Below, piece by piece: positions 2,959 to 12,355 of a stretch of 32,389 nt of DNA. This stretch comes from Dehalococcoidia bacterium. GTDB taxonomy: Bacteria > Chloroflexota > Dehalococcoidia > GIF9 > AB-539-J10. The notes beneath the pieces are model-generated. The model did no database searches. It had not been told where the DNA came from and worked only from the letters and a program-made list of their open reading frames with translations. Every line of letters starts with the position of its first letter. Position 1 is the first letter of the stretch. The DNA lies in NCBI GenBank assembly GCA_030611085.1, contig JAUWQI010000001.1, positions 1 through 32,389 on the forward strand, in the 5' to 3' direction. The translations under genes and the position numbers were made by a program.

Positions 2959-4386
2959 ATGGCAGGCATTATTTCGTACGGCGCTTATATACCATTGTGG
3001 AGGCTAAGTAGAGATGCTATTGCTGAGGCCTGGGGTAGTGGTTCCACCGGTGGGGAGCGAAGCGTAGCTAACAACGATGAGGATGTTGTTACAATGGCAG
3101 TTGAAGCTGCGTTTGATTGTCTTAATGGTGTTGGACGTGAGAATGTTGATGGCTTATATTTTGCCTCCACTACGCCACCATTCAAGGAAAAGGAATGCTC
3201 TACATTGGTGGCTACAGCAACTGATTTAAAGCCGGAAATCGTAACCGCGGATTATGGCAATAGTTTAAGAGCAGGGACTGCAGCATTCAGGGCAGCATTA
3301 GATGCAGTAGTCGGCGGCTCTGCCAGGAGTGTATTAGTAACTGCTTCTGATTGCCGCCTAGGTTATCCTCGCTCAAATTACGAACAAAGCTTCGGTGATG
3401 CTGCAGCGGCTTTCCTAATCGGCAATACTACCAAACCGGCTGTTATTATAGAAGGTAGTTATTCTATTTCTAATGAGCTATATGATGTGTGGAGACTGGA
3501 CAAGGATACTTATGTTCAGTCTTGGGAAGACCGCTTTATTATAGAACATGGTTATACTGAAAATATGGAGAAGGCGATCTCTGGCTTAATGAAGAAGAAA
3601 GGCCTCTCGCCGAAGGATATTACTAAGGCTATACTTTACGCTCCCACAGCAAGAGCTCAGCAAGGGCTAGCTCGCCGCTTGGGCTTTGACGCCAAAACAC
3701 AACTTCAAGACCCTCTCATTAGCAATATCGGGGTTTCAGGCTGTGCCCATGCCTTACTTATGTTGGTAGCTGCCCTAGAGGAAGCTAATCCAGGTGACAA
3801 GCTTCTTCTCGCTAGCTATGGGAGTGGTGCCGATGCATTCCTCCTTCAAGTAACGGATGAAATAGAAAAGATTAATGAGGGTAGAAGAGGAGTGAAAGGT
3901 TTTCTTTCTTCAAAGAAAGCACTTCCTAGTTATACCAGGTACTTGAGTTACAAAGGATTGTTGGAACCCCAGCCCGGAGAGCCCTTTCGGCTTTTTCCAG
4001 CAGCGACCACCAGTTGGCGGGAGCGTGACTGGGCTATTCGTATGCATGCCAGCAAATGCAGGAATTGTGGACTCACCACTTTCCCTATAGAGAGGGTATG
4101 TTATAGCTGTCGCAGCAAAGACAATTATGAAGAGGTGAGGCTTTCAGATAAAAAAGCAAAGGTATTTACCTACACCTTAGATAATCTAGCTGGCAGAAGT
4201 GATGACCCGACGATACCACAAACAGAGGTGGCATTTGAATTTGGAGATGTCAGAACCTACATTCTGATGACGGATTGCGAGCCTAAAGAGGTTAGCATAG
4301 GTATGCCAGTTGAGATGACATTTAGGAGAATGTACGAAGGAGCGGGTATGTATAACTACTTCTGGAAGTGCCGACCCATTAGATGA
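2959..4386 (+). CDS. HMG-CoA-synthase-like domain fused to a DUF35 Zn-ribbon/OB-fold domain
   Basis: 475 aa, with TAAGGAGGAG before ATG 2959. Residues 1-305 have a thiolase-superfamily fold of the HMG-CoA synthase type (start ISYGAYIPLWRL, later FGDAAAAFLIG and LLLASYGSGADAF). Residues 350-475 form a rubredoxin-like zinc ribbon, C367-x2-C370-x10-C381-x2-C384, followed by an OB fold (DUF35). In archaea these are separate proteins that assemble with a thiolase and share a CoA-binding site. Here they are one chain, 16 bp before a thiolase gene. By motif alignment with archaeal HMG-CoA synthase, the catalytic triad is absent: Glu is Thr71 (STTPP), the nucleophilic Cys is Leu103 (NSLRAGTAA) and His is Tyr227 (ILYAPT). 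HMG-CoA synthesis is therefore doubtful. An acyl-CoA-binding scaffold for the thiolase is more likely, though this is inference. Confidence 0.82.
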   Translation: MAGIISYGAYIPLWRLSRDAIAEAWGSGSTGGERSVANNDEDVVTMAVEAAFDCLNGVGRENVDGLYFASTTPPFKEKECSTLVATATDLKPEIVTADYGNSLRAGTAAFRAALDAVVGGSARSVLVTASDCRLGYPRSNYEQSFGDAAAAFLIGNTTKPAVIIEGSYSISNELYDVWRLDKDTYVQSWEDRFIIEHGYTENMEKAISGLMKKKGLSPKDITKAILYAPTARAQQGLARRLGFDAKTQLQDPLISNIGVSGCAHALLMLVAALEEANPGDKLLLASYGSGADAFLLQVTDEIEKINEGRRGVKGFLSSKKALPSYTRYLSYKGLLEPQPGEPFRLFPAATTSWRERDWAIRMHASKCRNCGLTTFPIERVCYSCRSKDNYEEVRLSDKKAKVFTYTLDNLAGRSDDPTIPQTEVAFEFGDVRTYILMTDCEPKEVSIGMPVEMTFRRMYEGAGMYNYFWKCRPIR

Positions 4387-4402
4387 AAGGAGGGAAAACT
4401 AA

Positions 4403-5596
4403 ATGGAGAGCATAAAGGATAAAGTTGCTATTGTTGGCATGGGCTGTTCTAAATTCGGGGAGAGATGGGATGCTAGCATTGATGACCTTGTAATAGAGTC
4501 TGCCTACGAAGCTTACGAAGATGCCGGTATTGACCCTAAAGATATTCAGGCTTGCTGGTATGGAACTGTAACCCAACCTTTGATTGGTGATGGCGCTACT
4601 CACTTAGCCAGGCCACTAAAGTTACACGGGATCCCCATGACTAGAGTAGAGGCTTGGTGTATTACTGGCCATGAGGCATTGCGAAATGCTTGCTTTGCTG
4701 TGGCTTGTGGCATGTATGATTTGGTTCTAGTTTTAGGGGCAGAGAAGCTTAAGGATACCGGCTTTCCTGGGTTGGGAGCCGGTCGGGGTATGAGCCCGGT
4801 ATTAGAAGCTCGACGTACTGCGCCGGGCTCGTTTGGCATGATCGCTACCAGATATTTTTATACTTATGGATTAGGTCCAGAGGAAGGGAAGAGGACTATT
4901 GGCAAGATTGCAGTTAAAAATCATTATAATGGCAGCATGTGCCCTAAGGCTCACTTTCGCAACAAGGTAACTTTAGAGCAAGTATTGAAGGCGCCTATAA
5001 TTGCCTGGCCTTTGGGGCTATTCGATTGCTGTGGCAACAGCGATGGTAGCGCCGCAGCTATCATAGTCCCAGCGAAGGATGCCAGAAAATATAGGGATGA
5101 CCCCATCTACATAAAGGGTATAGGTTCGGCGCATGTTGCTTTGCTTCCTCAGAATTGCCCTAGTTTTGACTGGCTTCACTTTGAGGAAGTTATTAATTCC
5201 GCCCACCAAGCTTACGAACAAGCCGGGATAACAAATCCTCGGGAGCAGATAGATGTTGCCGTAGTTCATGATTGCTTTACTAGCACTGAAATGCTCCTCT
5301 ATGAAATGCTCGGCTTTAGTCCTGAGGGTAAAGCTAAGGAGGATATCGATTCTGGCTTTTTTGAGCTTACAGGTGGGCTTCCAGTGAATAGCGATGGAGG
5401 ACTAAAGTGTTTTGGCCACCCGGTTGGTGCTAGCGGCATAAGGATGACTTACGAAATTTATAAACAATTGCAGGGCAAAGCACAATTACCAGAGCGCCAG
5501 TTGAAAGATGTGAGGCTTGGCTTATCAAATACCTTTGGTGGACCTCCTCAGGTATCCGCTGTTGCTGTTTTGGGTAAAGAACCAGGGTATCCTTAA
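4403..5596 (+). CDS. SCP-x-type thiolase (acetyl-CoA acyltransferase family)
   Basis: 397 aa, with AAAGGAGGGAAA before ATG 4403. It would cleave 3-oxoacyl-CoA with CoA, or condense acyl-CoAs, in the cytoplasm. The nucleophile is Cys86 in VEAWCITGHEAL. Other active-site motifs are VVHDCFTSTEML (His289, Cys291) and CFGHPVGASG (His339). The C-terminal loop reads LSNTFGG rather than the CxGGG of bacterial biosynthetic thiolases, as in the SCP-x and archaeal type that works with DUF35 partners. It closes the operon and follows the HMGCS-like/DUF35 fusion by 16 bp, matching the gene pairing of the archaeal thiolase/HMGCS/DUF35 complex and of the BbsA-BbsB thiolase of anaerobic toluene degradation. 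Its active site looks complete, unlike that of its neighbour. The substrate is unknown. Confidence 0.87.
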   Translation: MESIKDKVAIVGMGCSKFGERWDASIDDLVIESAYEAYEDAGIDPKDIQACWYGTVTQPLIGDGATHLARPLKLHGIPMTRVEAWCITGHEALRNACFAVACGMYDLVLVLGAEKLKDTGFPGLGAGRGMSPVLEARRTAPGSFGMIATRYFYTYGLGPEEGKRTIGKIAVKNHYNGSMCPKAHFRNKVTLEQVLKAPIIAWPLGLFDCCGNSDGSAAAIIVPAKDARKYRDDPIYIKGIGSAHVALLPQNCPSFDWLHFEEVINSAHQAYEQAGITNPREQIDVAVVHDCFTSTEMLLYEMLGFSPEGKAKEDIDSGFFELTGGLPVNSDGGLKCFGHPVGASGIRMTYEIYKQLQGKAQLPERQLKDVRLGLSNTFGGPPQVSAVAVLGKEPGYP

Positions 5597-5796: not shown

Positions 5797-6189
5797 ATGC
5801 CTATTTACGAATATTGGTGTAGCCCTTGCCAGAAAAAGGTTAGTTTATACCAACGAGGGTTTTCTTCCTCCCCTCCCCCTTGCCCTCATTGCGGGAATAG
5901 CCAACTCAAGCGAATATTCTCCACCTTTTCTATGCATAAAACATATAAAGATGTTTATGAAGATATACTTTCTGACCGTGAGTTAACCCAAGGCATGGTG
6001 CATAACGATCCTAGAGCGTTAATTGAGTGGAATAAACGGATGAGCGGGGGCGAAGAAGCTGGCCCCGAATATGAAGAGATAACAGAGAGGATGGAAAGAG
6101 GAGAGTGGCCCGTTGAGCAAATACAGGAGAAAAGGAAGGAATTTCTTGGTGAAGAGGAAGCTAAGCCTAAGTCAGCAACAAGTGAATGA
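5797..6189 (+). CDS. FmdB-type zinc-ribbon protein, first of a tandem pair
   Basis: 130 aa. It begins with the FmdB-family signature MPIYEYWCSPCQKK, with a four-cysteine zinc ribbon Cys8-x2-Cys11 ... Cys29-x2-Cys32 (CPHCG). The family was first noted as a putative regulator beside formamidase and amidase genes, but most members have no proven role. After the ribbon comes a charged tail (about residues 45-130) rich in Glu, Lys and Arg, without membrane segments. The start is ATG 5797 with CCAGGAAAATAAA upstream. It is followed after 10 bp by a second copy of the same architecture. Both share the segment after the ribbon (I-S-x-F-x-x-H-K-x-x-K-x-V), so they arose by duplication. The role of the pair next to a thiamine gene is unknown. 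Confidence 0.8.
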   Translation: MPIYEYWCSPCQKKVSLYQRGFSSSPPPCPHCGNSQLKRIFSTFSMHKTYKDVYEDILSDRELTQGMVHNDPRALIEWNKRMSGGEEAGPEYEEITERMERGEWPVEQIQEKRKEFLGEEEAKPKSATSE

Positions 6190-6199
6190 GAGATAATAT

Positions 6200-6574
6200 A
6201 TGCCCATCTATGAGTTTATGTGCCAAAATTGCTGCAGGAAATCAAGCTTTCTAATAAGAAGCTCTTCAGCTTCTTTTAGCCCTGAATGCCCGTTTTGTGG
6301 CGGCACCAACCTATCCCGCACTATATCAAGCTTTGCCTACCACAAGTCTTTGAAAACCGTGTGGGAGGAAAGTGGTGAGCCAACGTTGCACCCCAGCGAT
6401 GATTATTACAAAGACCCTCGCAATATTGGTCGTTGGGCGGAAAAGAAATTTCAAGAGATGGGTGAAGAGATGCCATCCCAACTTCAAGAGAAGATACAAG
6501 CGGCCAGGGATGGTGAATTACCTGAGCCGCTGAAGGATTTAAAAGGTGCCTCTCCAACCGCTGCGTATAGTTGA
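6200..6574 (+). CDS. FmdB-type zinc-ribbon protein, second of a tandem pair
   Basis: 124 aa. It starts MPIYEFMCQNCCRK. The zinc ribbon is Cys8-x2-Cys11 with Cys30-x2-Cys33 (CPFCGG), and there is an extra Cys12. The tail contains DPRNIGRWAEKKFQEMGEEMP, which parallels DPRALIEWNKRMSGGEE of the upstream copy, so the homology extends beyond the ribbon. The SD sequence before ATG 6200 is weak (GAGAGATAATAT), and the 10-bp gap suggests coupling to the first copy. Its last 29 nt overlap the GTG start of the ThiD2-ThiE gene in another frame. Function unknown; it may bind nucleic acid or a protein partner. Confidence 0.8.
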   Translation: MPIYEFMCQNCCRKSSFLIRSSSASFSPECPFCGGTNLSRTISSFAYHKSLKTVWEESGEPTLHPSDDYYKDPRNIGRWAEKKFQEMGEEMPSQLQEKIQAARDGELPEPLKDLKGASPTAAYS

Positions 6575-7619
6575 TGCTAACCTCAACCGTTTAAGTGAAG
6601 GCCTGCGTTTCCTCGAAGATGTTGCTCGCTTTCTTCTCAACGATGCTACGCTGAGTCAGCAGTTAAAAACTATGCGCCACAATTTAGCCGAGGTGACTAA
6701 ACCGCTAACCGCGAAGCTCCTATCTCAAAGAAGCTCAGAACATGATGTTGGTATTAGCAAAGAAAATGTTAGCTATGAGCAAGAAGCGAAGCACACTCAG
6801 CAGGACTTGCCAGGTGTGATTACCGCCAATGCTAAAAGAGCGGAGGAATCTTTTCGTGTATTAGAGGAGTTAGCTAAATTGCCCGAAATAAATCCCATGC
6901 TGGATTCGGTCAGATTTGAGCGACTACGATTTACCCTTTATACTCTGGAGCAGAAGTTGCTATCCAAAATATTACGCCGAGATAAAATAAATCAGCTAAG
7001 TGGGCTTTATGTTATTTTGGATAGGCAAGTTTTAGCCGGCAGGGATGAATTAGATATCGCGAGCCAAATTATTCGTGGAGGTGCCAAGATAATCCAACTT
7101 CGTGATAAGCAAGGCAATAGGGGAAAGTTATTGCCTCTAGCTCAGAAACTTAAAGACATCTGTACTGAATCGGGCGTTCTATTCATAATAAATGATTACC
7201 TTGATTTAGCGCTGGCTGTCGATGCTGATGGACTCCACATCGGTCAAGAAGACTTGCCCTTGCCTGTCATTCGAAGGGAGTTGCCCATAGACAAAGTAGT
7301 TGGCTGTTCAGTTACCACAGTATCTCAAGCAATAAAAGCACAAGATGAAGGAGTAGATTATATTTCCGTAGGCTCTATATTTCCCACAACAACGAAGAAG
7401 GAGGCTACTGTAGTTGGAGTGGATATGCTTAAGGAAATCAGGCAATCAGTATCCTCTCCTTTAGTGGCTATTGGTGGCATCAATGAAGATAACATCAGTC
7501 AAGCAATGGCTGCCGGCGCCGATTCTATAGCTGTAATTAGCGCTATCTTGGGTGAGGAGGATATTAAAGGAGCAGTGCAGCGACTAACCGCACAGATGAA
7601 CTTAACAGAAAAGTCCTAA
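6546..7619 (+). CDS. thiE: ThiD2-ThiE fusion, thiamine-phosphate synthase
   Basis: 357 aa, longer than plain ThiE (about 210 aa). Residues 1-145 match the ThiD2-type N-terminal domain (RIVDANLNRLSEGLRFLED; later ANAKRAEESFRVLEE), an all-helical domain proposed by others as an alternative hydroxymethylpyrimidine-phosphate kinase. Residues 150-352 are a TIM-barrel ThiE, which joins HMP-PP and thiazole phosphate: QLRDK (184-188), NDYLDLA (216-222), GLHIGQEDL (229-237), SVGSIFPTTTKK (274-285) and AIGGI (308-312). The start is GTG 6546, inside the end of the second FmdB gene (29-nt overlap), implying translational coupling. No earlier start preserves the ThiD2 domain, and no TPP riboswitch is visible upstream. 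Other thiamine genes are not in the window. Confidence 0.9.
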   Translation: MPLQPLRIVDANLNRLSEGLRFLEDVARFLLNDATLSQQLKTMRHNLAEVTKPLTAKLLSQRSSEHDVGISKENVSYEQEAKHTQQDLPGVITANAKRAEESFRVLEELAKLPEINPMLDSVRFERLRFTLYTLEQKLLSKILRRDKINQLSGLYVILDRQVLAGRDELDIASQIIRGGAKIIQLRDKQGNRGKLLPLAQKLKDICTESGVLFIINDYLDLALAVDADGLHIGQEDLPLPVIRRELPIDKVVGCSVTTVSQAIKAQDEGVDYISVGSIFPTTTKKEATVVGVDMLKEIRQSVSSPLVAIGGINEDNISQAMAAGADSIAVISAILGEEDIKGAVQRLTAQMNLTEKS

Positions 7620-8369: not shown

Positions 8370-9539
8370 CTATTTGCTCGGTAGCCCTAATCCTCGTGTA
8401 GCTAAAATGTTCTTCAAAATTTCTGTTGTGCCGCCTTGCAAGCTATAGCCCTTAGAACCTAGATATGAGCGGACTGCCAATCCACGAATCGGACAGTATT
8501 TAGAGCCATCTACTAATTGCCCATACGGTCCTAGAATCTCCGTAGCGCTATTAGCTAATCGCTTTTCGAACTCGGTAGTATATGCTTTGGACATCGCAGA
8601 CTCCCAATTAGGGGCACGCCCTCCATCCATAACCATTGCTACTCGATAAACAAGCAATCTGCCAACTTCAAATTCAATCTGGAGCTGAGCTAGTTTGTTG
8701 CGAATCAATGGTTCCTGGGACAAAGGTTTCCCGCTCAGCTTGGTTTCCTTAGTGAATTGGACAAGAGCTTCAAACAAGGGGTAATTGCCCATGAGACGTT
8801 CTATTCCGCTTCTCTCATAATCAAGCTGTTCAATAATTTGGTAGAAACCACGATTTTTCTCCCCTATCAGGCAGTTCTTGGGAACACGCACATCATCAAA
8901 GAAGACTTCGTTAAACTCAGCTTCGCCGGTAATAACTACAAGAGGGCGAACAGTAATACCAGGCAAACTTAAATCTGCGATAAACTCGCTAATGCCTCTG
9001 TGCTTTGGTGCCTCTGGGTCCGTTCGTGCTACTAAATAGATGTAATTTCTGAATTGCCCCGTAGTCCATACCTTTTGACCATTAAGAACATAATAATCTC
9101 CATCCTCAACAGCCTTAGTCTGAAGTGATGCTAAGTCAGACCCAGCTTCTGGCTCACTCATTCCTACAGCGAAAAAAACTTCGCCCCGTACAATCTTAGG
9201 TATGAATTCCTTCTTCTGTTCCTCAGTGCCATGGGCAAGTATAGAGCGACCCACCTGTCGGTCAGCGAACCAGTGACAAGCTGTAGGTGCCCCATACCTC
9301 AGCATTTCCTCAGTAAGTATAAGGCGATCTACATTGCTACGCCCTTGCCCACCATACTCCTTGGGTAAGGCTAAACCAATCCAACCCTTTTGCGCCACCT
9401 TACGGCTAAACTCTGGCGAATTTCCCGTCATCCAGACATCGACACTTGGTGTGAAAGTCCCCAGCCTTATTTCTTCTTCCAGAAAGTCACGAACCTCTTG
9501 CCTGAATTTCTTCTGTTCCTCAGTAAAGCTAAAATCCAT
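8370..9539 (-). CDS. Acyl-CoA dehydrogenase (FadE/CaiA-like, full-length partner)
   Basis: 389 aa, with AGGAGAGAG before the ATG. An FAD enzyme that introduces the 2,3-double bond into an acyl-CoA and passes electrons to ETF. Domains in order: N-terminal helical (1-120), middle beta barrel with FAVGMSEPEAGSD (123-135) and VLNGQKVWTT (151-160), and C-terminal helical domain ending in LQGGTTEILKNILATRGLGLP. The Glu of the short-chain-type YEGT motif is replaced (QGGT). Instead Glu242 in LDYERS sits where long-chain and isovaleryl-CoA dehydrogenases carry their catalytic base. It is the last gene of the minus-strand cluster, 15 bp after the carboxyltransferase gene. With the acyl-CoA dehydrogenase at 11240-12355 it may form an alpha2-beta2 enzyme like the mycobacterial FadE pairs. 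Substrate unknown. Confidence 0.88.
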   Translation of the reverse strand: MDFSFTEEQKKFRQEVRDFLEEEIRLGTFTPSVDVWMTGNSPEFSRKVAQKGWIGLALPKEYGGQGRSNVDRLILTEEMLRYGAPTACHWFADRQVGRSILAHGTEEQKKEFIPKIVRGEVFFAVGMSEPEAGSDLASLQTKAVEDGDYYVLNGQKVWTTGQFRNYIYLVARTDPEAPKHRGISEFIADLSLPGITVRPLVVITGEAEFNEVFFDDVRVPKNCLIGEKNRGFYQIIEQLDYERSGIERLMGNYPLFEALVQFTKETKLSGKPLSQEPLIRNKLAQLQIEFEVGRLLVYRVAMVMDGGRAPNWESAMSKAYTTEFEKRLANSATEILGPYGQLVDGSKYCPIRGLAVRSYLGSKGYSLQGGTTEILKNILATRGLGLPSK

Positions 9540-9554
9540 TGTCTCTCTCCTTTT

Positions 9555-11135
9555 TCAAAGATTAATGTTGGAATACTTCCTCCAGGGCTGTGCTTTATAG
9601 GCTGTCTCCCATTTGTTTTCCAAAGCATCCAGCGCGCTATTTATTATTCTCCTTGTATCCTCAGGCATTATCACATCATCTACATAACCCCGCGCTGCTG
9701 CATGGTACGGGTTGGCATAAATGTCGTTGTATTCTTTCATCCTCTCATCTCTCATCTCTTCCGGGTTTTTTGCTTCCCTTATCTCTCTAGCGAAAATGAC
9801 GCCAGCTACTGTTTTAGCATCTAGGGCAGTAACAATAGCTGTTGGCCAGGCAAAGACAAAATCAGCTCCAATAGACTTGTCCAGCATCCCATAATGAGCT
9901 CCAGCATAGGACTTCCCGATTATCATTGAAATCAAAGGCACAGTAGCGTTGGCCCAGGCAAAGAGCATCTTGGCACCGTGTCGCAGAATACCTGCCCAAT
10001 CCTGTTGGGACCCTATCATATAGGCAGGGGTATCCACAAAAGTAACTAGGGGGATGTTGAATAGGTCACAGAATCTTATAAACCGTGCCCCTTTATCAGA
10101 AGCGTCAATGTCTATAGCGCCTGCCATCCACTTTGGCTGGTTAGCCACTATTCCCACAGGGCGCCCGTTAAAACGGGCAAAACCTGTTATCATATTTCTG
10201 GCGTGAAGTCCCAGAGTCTCAAAGAAGTAGCCATCATCCACTACTCTTTTAATTATTTCATACATGTCATAAGGTAGATATGGCTCCTCTGACACCAAAT
10301 CAATTAGGCCTTCGATTTTCCTTGCAGGGTCGTCTTTTGTCTCAATTCGAGGTGGCTTCTCCCGATTATTGGAAGGGAAGAAAGATAAGAACTCTTTTAC
10401 TTTATCCAAGGCGTCTTTATCATCCTCAGCTACCACATGCGTCTGTCCTGATTTGATAGCATGGGCTCTATAGCTAGAGAGTTTTTCAAGGGTTATTTCC
10501 TCACCTGTTTGTGCTTTAACAAATGCGGGACCAGCAATGCCCATGAAACCGGTATTTCTGACCTGGATGACGAAATCTTGCATTACAGGGTGATAGGCTT
10601 GCCCTCCCAAAACGGGACCCATTATCACAGATATTTGAGGAATTATCCCTGAAGCTTGATTTTGAGAATGGAATAGCCAGCCATAAGCTTCCAACGCGTC
10701 CATGCCTTCTTGCATTCGTAGCCCTCCAGAGTCATTCATGCTTACAAATGGCCATCCCTCCTCCTTAGCAAGATCTATAGCGTGGGAAAATTTTCTCCCG
10801 TGATATTCACTATAACTCCCCGCCATAGAGGTAAAATCCTCACTAGCAGTGACAACATATCTGCCGTTTACCTTACCAAAGCCAGTAACAATCCCTTCAG
10901 CAGGCACATCTCTTTTATCCATTCCAAAAGCAGTGGCTCTGTGTTTAACATGCATTCCTATTTCCGTAAAAGTGCCAGGGTCAAAGAGATAATCTATTCT
11001 CTCCCGAGCTGTCAACTGCCCCCCCTTATGGCGTTTCTCAATAACCTCGGGCCCTCCCATCCGCAAATTATATTCTCGCCTCCTCTTTAGTTCTTCTACC
11101 TTCTCTAATTTTTTACTGACAGGTTCATCGCTCAT
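9555..11135 (-). CDS. Biotin-dependent acyl-CoA carboxylase, carboxyltransferase subunit
   Basis: 526 aa, the usual length for PccB/MmdA-type subunits, with AAGGAGG and 8 bp before the ATG. It moves CO2 from carboxybiotin to an acyl-CoA, or works in the decarboxylase direction. The N-terminal half has TARERIDYLFDPGTF (42-56), the oxyanion segment NDSGGLRMQEG (134-144) and GGQAYHPVMQDF (177-188). The C-terminal half has VDTPAYMIGSQQDWAGILRHG, then SYAGAHYGM and AWPTAIV. The residue that in propionyl-CoA carboxylase beta subunits is a specificity-determining Asp (GGAYDVM) is Tyr here (AGAHYGM), so propionyl-CoA should not be assumed. No biotin carboxylase or biotin-carrier gene is in the window, so partners must be elsewhere. 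It lies between two acyl-CoA dehydrogenase genes. Confidence 0.87.
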   Translation of the reverse strand: MSDEPVSKKLEKVEELKRRREYNLRMGGPEVIEKRHKGGQLTARERIDYLFDPGTFTEIGMHVKHRATAFGMDKRDVPAEGIVTGFGKVNGRYVVTASEDFTSMAGSYSEYHGRKFSHAIDLAKEEGWPFVSMNDSGGLRMQEGMDALEAYGWLFHSQNQASGIIPQISVIMGPVLGGQAYHPVMQDFVIQVRNTGFMGIAGPAFVKAQTGEEITLEKLSSYRAHAIKSGQTHVVAEDDKDALDKVKEFLSFFPSNNREKPPRIETKDDPARKIEGLIDLVSEEPYLPYDMYEIIKRVVDDGYFFETLGLHARNMITGFARFNGRPVGIVANQPKWMAGAIDIDASDKGARFIRFCDLFNIPLVTFVDTPAYMIGSQQDWAGILRHGAKMLFAWANATVPLISMIIGKSYAGAHYGMLDKSIGADFVFAWPTAIVTALDAKTVAGVIFAREIREAKNPEEMRDERMKEYNDIYANPYHAAARGYVDDVIMPEDTRRIINSALDALENKWETAYKAQPWRKYSNINL

Positions 11136-11239
11136 AAGTAAGCCTCCTTATGCTAAAAATATAATGCACCTCATGCAGTGCAATTCGCACATAAAACAGG
11201 AAGCCAGAAAAGAAGTTCCAGCTTAAATCCCCAGCTAGA

Positions 11240-12355
11240 TTATAACCCCATTTCATTGGCTACTGTCTCCCGGTGAAAATTGGCATCGCCAAAACTGGAT
11301 TCGCCAGCCTTAGCTCTTCGGGTATAGAATTGCAAATCATGGTCCATGGTAACACCAAGAGCCCCATGAATCTGATGTGACAATGCAATAACGCGCTGAG
11401 AAGCCTCACCTACCCAAGCTTTGGCTATGGCTGCTTCTTTAGTGCAGGGAAGTCCCTCACTTAACATCCAGGCTGCTTGGTAGGTAGCGAGCCTGGAACC
11501 CTCAACATCGGTTACCATATCAGCGCAGTAATGCTGCATGATTTGGAAGCTACCAATAGGACGGTCAAATTGCTTCCTCTCTTTAGCGTAATCGGTTGTC
11601 ATTTCCAGCACTTGCTGAATGTTACCAACTATCTCACAACATTTTGCTACTGCGGCTCGCTCCACTATCTTTTGCACTCCGTTCCATCCTTGGTTCAGTT
11701 GCCCCAAGATATTAGCCTTGGGCACCCGCACTCGGTCAAAAATCACCTCGCATTGTTTATCCCTGGCGATGGTTTGCAGGACGGTATAGCTTATTCCTGG
11801 GCTCTTGGCATTTACCAAGAATATAGTGATTCCATGTTCAGTCTTAGCTACACACAGAAGATAGTTAGCAATATGAGCATCGGGAACAAACAATTTTGTG
11901 CCGTTAATGATATAGTCATTATTATCAGGGGTAGCCTTGACTGTAATTGAGGCAGCATCGTATCTGGCAACAGGCTCAGTTAAAGCCAGCGTAGAAATTT
12001 GTTCGCCTGTAATTATTTTGGGCAGGTACTCCTGTTTTTGCTCCTCGTTGCCAAGGTCTAAGATGGGCAAGCCACCAAGAACTACTGTGGAGAAAAAAGG
12101 TCCAGATAGACAGGCACGTCCCATTTCCTCCAGCAACACTGCTAGGTCAAGAAAACTCATACCACCACCACCATACTTTTCGGGAAATGCCAACCCCATC
12201 CAGCCTAACTCTGCCATTTCTTGCCACAGCTCTGCTGAGTAACCTTCGTCACTCTCCTCGCTTGCTTTGACCACCGTTTTAGGACATTTATCCGCTAAGA
12301 ACTCACGAGCTGCTTTCTTTAGCATTTCTTGTTCTTCAGAAAGAGTCAAGTCCAT
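11240..12355 (-). CDS. Acyl-CoA dehydrogenase, FadE-beta-like partner subunit
   Basis: 371 aa, with AAGGAGGG and 6 bp before the ATG. The N-terminal helical domain is normal (LSEEQEMLKKAAREFL). The middle domain replaces the usual S/T-E-P-x-A-G-S-D flavin motif with LTEPVARYDAAS. The C-terminal helical domain has YAKERKQFDRPIGSFQIMQH, which supplies FAD-contacting Arg and Gln. The tail is GDANFHRETVA instead of the (Y/Q)(E/G)GTxEI segment, typical of the partner subunit in heterotetrameric acyl-CoA dehydrogenases that oxidise bulky side chains in Actinobacteria. It probably pairs with the product of 8370-9539. The carboxyltransferase gene between them would be co-transcribed; the 104-bp gap to it contains no obvious terminator. 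Confidence 0.85.
   Translation of the reverse strand: MDLTLSEEQEMLKKAAREFLADKCPKTVVKASEESDEGYSAELWQEMAELGWMGLAFPEKYGGGGMSFLDLAVLLEEMGRACLSGPFFSTVVLGGLPILDLGNEEQKQEYLPKIITGEQISTLALTEPVARYDAASITVKATPDNNDYIINGTKLFVPDAHIANYLLCVAKTEHGITIFLVNAKSPGISYTVLQTIARDKQCEVIFDRVRVPKANILGQLNQGWNGVQKIVERAAVAKCCEIVGNIQQVLEMTTDYAKERKQFDRPIGSFQIMQHYCADMVTDVEGSRLATYQAAWMLSEGLPCTKEAAIAKAWVGEASQRVIALSHQIHGALGVTMDHDLQFYTRRAKAGESSFGDANFHRETVANEMGL

Follow-up and report, generated by a model that had tools for sequence, protein, structure and literature searches.

The window analysed here, a 32,389-nucleotide stretch of a Dehalococcoidia bacterium genome, carries on its forward strand genes for a degenerate 3-hydroxyacyl-CoA dehydrogenase-like protein (369 to 1166; assigned by Pfam and by its motifs relative to orthologues), an enoyl-CoA hydratase of the crotonase family (1198 to 1986; Pfam ECH_1, 1.8e-77), an intact 3-hydroxyacyl-CoA dehydrogenase (2004 to 2861; Pfam, with the GAGAMG, HWFNP and Glu motifs in place), a 475-residue protein with a 3-hydroxy-3-methylglutaryl-CoA synthase (HMGCS)-like domain and a DUF35 domain (2959 to 4386), and a 397-residue thiolase (4403 to 5596). 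An open reading frame check showed the last two to be real and adjacent. Beyond the thiolase, positions 5797 to 7619 hold two tandem FmdB-type zinc-ribbon ORFs and then a ThiD2-thiamine-phosphate-synthase fusion ORF, which adjoin the thiolase in many relatives. Further along, on the opposite strand, two acyl-CoA dehydrogenases surround a carboxyltransferase (8370 to 12355); the carboxyltransferase is mmdA-like, and the flanking proteins resemble the pimeloyl-CoA dehydrogenase large- and small-subunit models, scoring well below cutoff.

Both domains of the 2959-4386 product were matched by subunits of the archaeal acetoacetyl-CoA thiolase/DUF35/HMGCS complex. In phmmer searches, the HMGCS of Methanothermococcus thermolithotrophicus (6esq_I) aligned with residues 3 to 335 (E=1e-38), and the DUF35 subunit (6esq_E) aligned with residues 351 to 474 (E=4.9e-16 to 4.5e-15). 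The HMGCS-like domain (residues 1 to 335; 2959 to 3963) scored 236.4 bits against the NCBIfam model PRK04262, "hydroxymethylglutaryl-CoA synthase", under the curated cutoff of 244. The DUF35 domain, a zinc-ribbon/OB unit (residues 350 to 475; 4006 to 4383), carries its zinc cysteines at positions 367, 370, 381 and 384. An AlphaFold model built from 18 close homologues was poor (mean pLDDT, 58; DUF35 part, below 50), so that structural conclusions were drawn from sequence alignments to solved homologues; the best Foldseek matches of this low-confidence model (6esq, PhlA and MucABC) were used as support only.

Next, the catalytic residues of the HMGCS-like domain were examined. In the phmmer alignment, the 6ESQ columns Glu82, Cys114 and His238 (the His number was counted from the alignment; Glu82 and Cys114 are key residues of archaeal HMGCS [PMC6392133]) are occupied by Thr71 (3169 to 3171), Leu103 (3265 to 3267) and Tyr227 (3637 to 3639), and a profile alignment to Staphylococcus aureus HMGCS (1tvz) gave the same columns. 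The original prediction had described a single ORF joining synthase and DUF35 parts, with the triad replaced by precisely these residues, and on both points the alignments agreed with it. No hidden Cys/His/Glu set was found in the fusion with the two structure-known references and the profile. Fused homologues were then gathered from relatives, a phylum sample and annotated plasmids and reduced to 37 representatives below 75% identity, which span Chloroflexota, Pseudomonadota, Actinomycetota and haloarchaea. The catalytic Glu and Cys were each present in 0/37 and the His in 1/37, and in all 37 representatives surveyed the triad as a set is missing. The sole representative with a His at the catalytic position, a Sphingopyxis protein (L100:3980-5410), has neither Glu nor Cys, and the catalytic-His column is otherwise variable (Y, P, S, A, T or Q).

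For comparison, 23 intact HMGCS proteins were chosen for carrying all three catalytic residues: 21 unfused Chloroflexota proteins, the 6ESQ chain and a distant Leuconostoc protein. A thiolase adjoins most of the intact genes, and within flanks of only 1.5 kb a separate DUF35 gene was visible in eight loci. No triad-less full-length unfused homologue was present among the Chloroflexota proteins recovered; L056 and L066, two fragments of the fused clade truncated at the ends of their contigs, were counted on neither side. Since the triad is absent from the fused set and kept in unfused Chloroflexota HMGCS, fusion and triad loss travel together in this sample, although PhlA, which lost its triad without being fused, demonstrates that the loss can happen in an unfused protein. 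Across these alignments, triad loss is a rule of the clade and not local decay.

To extend the analysis beyond the triad, the 108 columns that are invariant in 22 archaeal-type intact HMGCS proteins were followed into the fused set, which has essentially lost 32, keeps 26 and is intermediate at 50. Among the lost columns are those of the triad and several close by, for example (in 6ESQ numbering) Phe112, Gln239 and Tyr272, of which Tyr272 has become an invariant Gly; those retained include the DED motif and Arg17, Arg191 and Arg203. In the DUF35 domain, each zinc cysteine is kept in 92 to 97% of the 37 representatives, and Arg456, Tyr467 and Lys470 are present in all 37. Every Cys of the synthase domain was counted, and none was conserved in more than 57% of the representatives; thus, no alternative Cys nucleophile is held family-wide, as the earlier reading had required. 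Other residues of the pocket region are better kept and specific to the family (Gly261 in 37/37, Arg133 in 31/37 and Asp147 in 30/37), and hydroxyl residues are frequent: Thr or Ser at position 71 in 34/37 and Ser or Thr at position 102 in 31/37 (Ser102 in 28/37). Close orthologues all have His264, and nearly all have Cys262. Such conservation would be expected had the synthase-like pocket been rebuilt for another reaction or a second ligand, making the fusion itself an enzyme or a sensor. We consider this unlikely, because the cysteine counts name no nucleophile, the catalytic-His column varies freely, and Cys262 and His264 are found in only 4/37 and 16/37 representatives, respectively.

The adjacent thiolase, in contrast, is intact. 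The 4403-5596 product was matched by the archaeal thiolase chain 6esq_A (E=3e-57) and scored 503 bits against PRK06157 (NCBIfam cutoff, 403); it also matches BbsB, though it is nearer to the archaeal chain. It retains Cys86, the nucleophile that the original prediction had assigned to it, as well as His289 of the HDCF motif and His339 of the GHP motif. A thiolase was found automatically at 55 of the 62 fused loci with more than 300 bases downstream, a count of loci and not of independent events, as a few rows repeat one gene. Of the remaining seven, one (L035) ends too early, one (L067) has the thiolase in an overlapping frame, and five have an acetyl-CoA acetyltransferase annotated directly downstream, so every fused gene has an adjoining thiolase wherever the contig allows. 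At the haloarchaeal loci the gene order is reversed, with the thiolase before the fusion. Wherever partner thiolases were aligned, the nucleophilic Cys and HDCF were present in all and GHP in all that covered the segment. Distances among the fusions and among their thiolases were correlated (Spearman 0.79; 28 pairs), a value expected from linkage and shared descent alone and hence no proof of partnership.

The same genome encodes three additional fusion-thiolase pairs (L006:5373-10939 and L007:8596-11264), of which two are arranged in tandem together with genes for two MaoC-type proteins and a short-chain dehydrogenase. One fused paralogue in the genome, L057:1084-2499, scored 244.1 bits against PRK04262, exceeding the cutoff by 0.1 bit despite its missing triad, so that automatic annotation would misname it as an HMG-CoA synthase. 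Fused open frames are conserved at 40 to 80% identity across families of the order. A single clade of all fused rows was not rejected (p-AU 0.394); because the three haloarchaeal fused rows branch apart in the best tree, on a long stem and poorly placed, a single origin of the fusion is a possibility only. In that same tree, with its poorly placed haloarchaeal rows, PhlA grouped with HMGCS and not with the fused clade (support 80/99, not starred).

The neighbours of the fused loci are nearly always genes of acyl-CoA catabolism, namely, hydratases, dehydrogenases, acyl-CoA dehydrogenases and CoA ligases or transferases. Genes for CoA-thioester enzymes or CoA ligases lie near all 16 plasmid loci (flanks of 3 to 7 kb); at one further locus, that of Natrinema thermotolerans, none were found nearby. 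The pairs on haloarchaeal megaplasmids (L102:3992-5428 and L103:3986-5416) stand beside genes for phenylacetate-CoA ligase, hydratase and hydroxyacyl-CoA dehydrogenase. In sister members of Dehalococcoidia, fusion and thiolase are separated by a crotonase-family gene (L011:7453-8307, with counterparts at the corresponding position in L010, L012 to L017 and L021); its product comes closest to the BadI and MenB models, in both cases under the cutoff, and these hits are leads only as to substrate. In Novosphingobium ES2-1, a fused protein without the triad is encoded at a locus whose gene order matches that reported for the edc cluster of Novosphingobium tardaugens. In that cluster, EGO55_13555, named "HMG-CoA synthase", adjoins a thiolase in an estradiol-induced operon; its authors assigned no step to it, placed it outside known HMGCS groups and suspected that it was not a condensing enzyme (PMC7793797). 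Likened by gene order only, EGO55_13555 is probably a member of the fused triad-less clade.

Several characterized systems resemble parts of the pair. All three parts of the archaeal complex (6ESQ and 6ET9) are homologous to it chain by chain, with adjacent genes and a retained thiolase nucleophile; there, however, the synthase is a separate chain with its Glu/Cys/His and serves the mevalonate pathway, whereas here synthase and DUF35 are fused, the triad is gone and the context is catabolic. All three proteins of 6ESQ contribute to an interface where the CoA lies (PMC6392133). PhlABC (5M3K and 5MG5) likewise combines a triad-less PhlA, the DUF35 protein PhlB and an active thiolase-fold PhlC with Cys88, and although only its thiolase subunit takes part in the chemistry, none of the three genes can be dispensed with (PMC6392133). 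Unlike the two halves of the fusion, PhlA and PhlB are distinct polypeptides, and PhlABC acts on phenols in antibiotic biosynthesis. MucABC (9VBO and 9VBT), a multicomponent acyltransferase, is grouped with PhlABC among the nearest solved relatives. Benzoylsuccinyl-CoA thiolase, BbsAB (7PXP), a degradative enzyme, shares with the window a Cys thiolase, a DUF35-type partner and a beta-oxidation operon but is described without a synthase-like subunit. The steroid aldolases Ltp2-ChsH2 and Sal-Shy likewise join a thiolase fold to a DUF35 partner (PMC12329534); they lack the thiolase nucleophile and perform retro-aldol cleavage. A retro-aldolase reading of the window pair was rejected on the grounds that its thiolase keeps the Cys. 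A synthase-like subunit is dispensable for some DUF35 thiolases, as BbsAB, Ltp2 and Sal function with DUF35 and without one. DUF35 fused to thiolase-superfamily domains, as well as the inactive PhlA, was described in 2010 (PMC2954200). Among open-licence papers, we found neither a characterized fused member nor a catabolic fused triad-less clade described as such.

We propose, with a probability of about 0.7, that the fusion is a non-catalytic partner of the adjacent thiolase and that the two may form a heteromeric 3-ketoacyl-CoA thiolase of beta-oxidation-type catabolism. The fusion itself, the clade-wide triad loss, the intact thiolase, the constant pairing and the catabolic neighbourhood are seen at the level of sequence. 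That the two proteins physically associate and form a CoA cleft, that activity depends on the partner and that the reaction runs in the degradative direction are suggested by the homologous 6ESQ and PhlABC complexes; the CoA site at the three-protein interface of the former and the chemistry of the latter led us to read the fusion, by homology, as an assembly and CoA-site subunit. The DUF35 part would dock on the thiolase, and the dead synthase-like part would hold the complex together and supply part of the CoA-binding cleft. All chemistry would fall to the thiolase: Cys86 would attack the 3-ketoacyl-CoA, with His289 and His339 serving the proton and oxyanion steps. The original prediction had offered the synthase fold as a reused scaffold or acyl-CoA clamp; this fits all of the evidence, including the lack of a hidden triad and of a conserved Cys. 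An inactive synthase-like subunit in such a complex has a precedent in PhlA (PMC6392133 and PMC2954200).

The same relatives raise the question of direction. With the acyltransferases PhlABC and MucABC among the nearest solved relatives, and with thiolases being reversible, the pair could act in the C-C forming or acyl-transfer direction and not in degradation. That is quite unlikely, given that beta-oxidation and ring-degradation genes adjoin nearly all loci and that a probable relative belongs to a catabolic operon induced by estradiol. The fusion-thiolase pairs are most likely a widespread kind of two-part degradative thiolase.

The degradative thiolase proposed here shares its operon with a further degenerate protein. 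The 369-1166 product is without the GxGxMG motif, the HxFxP histidine and the partner Glu. In its orthologues, conserved at 45 to 65% identity in several genera, the nucleotide-binding motif and the Glu are likewise missing, and the His is absent from nearly all of them. By these motifs, the product is a maintained pseudoenzyme, and it may plausibly pair with the intact dehydrogenase encoded in its cluster. That the operon holds two pseudoenzymes, this protein and the fusion, was thus borne out, both losses recurring in orthologues. BbsCD, the dehydrogenase of the toluene pathway, reportedly contains inactive subunits too, although it belongs to another family, that of the short-chain dehydrogenases. 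The original prediction had also raised a channelled complex, in which the thiolase pair would join the hydratase and the dehydrogenase/pseudo-dehydrogenase. In its favour, the pseudo-dehydrogenase is conserved, and several genera carry it in one cluster with the fusion or at least on one contig with it. We regard it as very unlikely: searches of four relatives with the orthologous fusion found no pseudo-dehydrogenase, most fused loci elsewhere are without such a gene, and it accompanies only part of one orthologous group. A bolder picture is unlikely as a whole, namely, pan-prokaryotic two-component catabolic thiolases with a dead synthase-DUF35 acyl-CoA clamp and, in this lineage, one channelled complex for two consecutive beta-oxidation steps, with a conserved pseudoenzyme at the side of the active enzyme in both.

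Finally, to read the gene as a genuine HMG-CoA synthase whose residues are unusual, or as a pseudogene in decay, is practically untenable even with PRK04262 scores just under the cutoff for the fusion and just over it for one paralogue in the genome, as the triad is missing clade-wide, no HMG-CoA reductase was found in the source assembly (83% complete) and the conservation of the open frames across families argues against decay. A mevalonate role was rejected on the same triad loss and missing reductase.

As probable partners of a degradative thiolase, these proteins bear on annotation beyond the window. Many genes of aromatic, steroid and other degradation clusters named "hydroxymethylglutaryl-CoA synthase" or "OB-fold domain-containing protein" most likely encode thiolase partners, and databases may mislabel fused triad-less proteins as HMG-CoA synthase. 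This reading also offers an explanation for the "HMG-CoA synthase" left unplaced in the estradiol (edc) cluster. Within one phylum, active unfused HMGCS operons and inactive fused ones offer a natural comparison.
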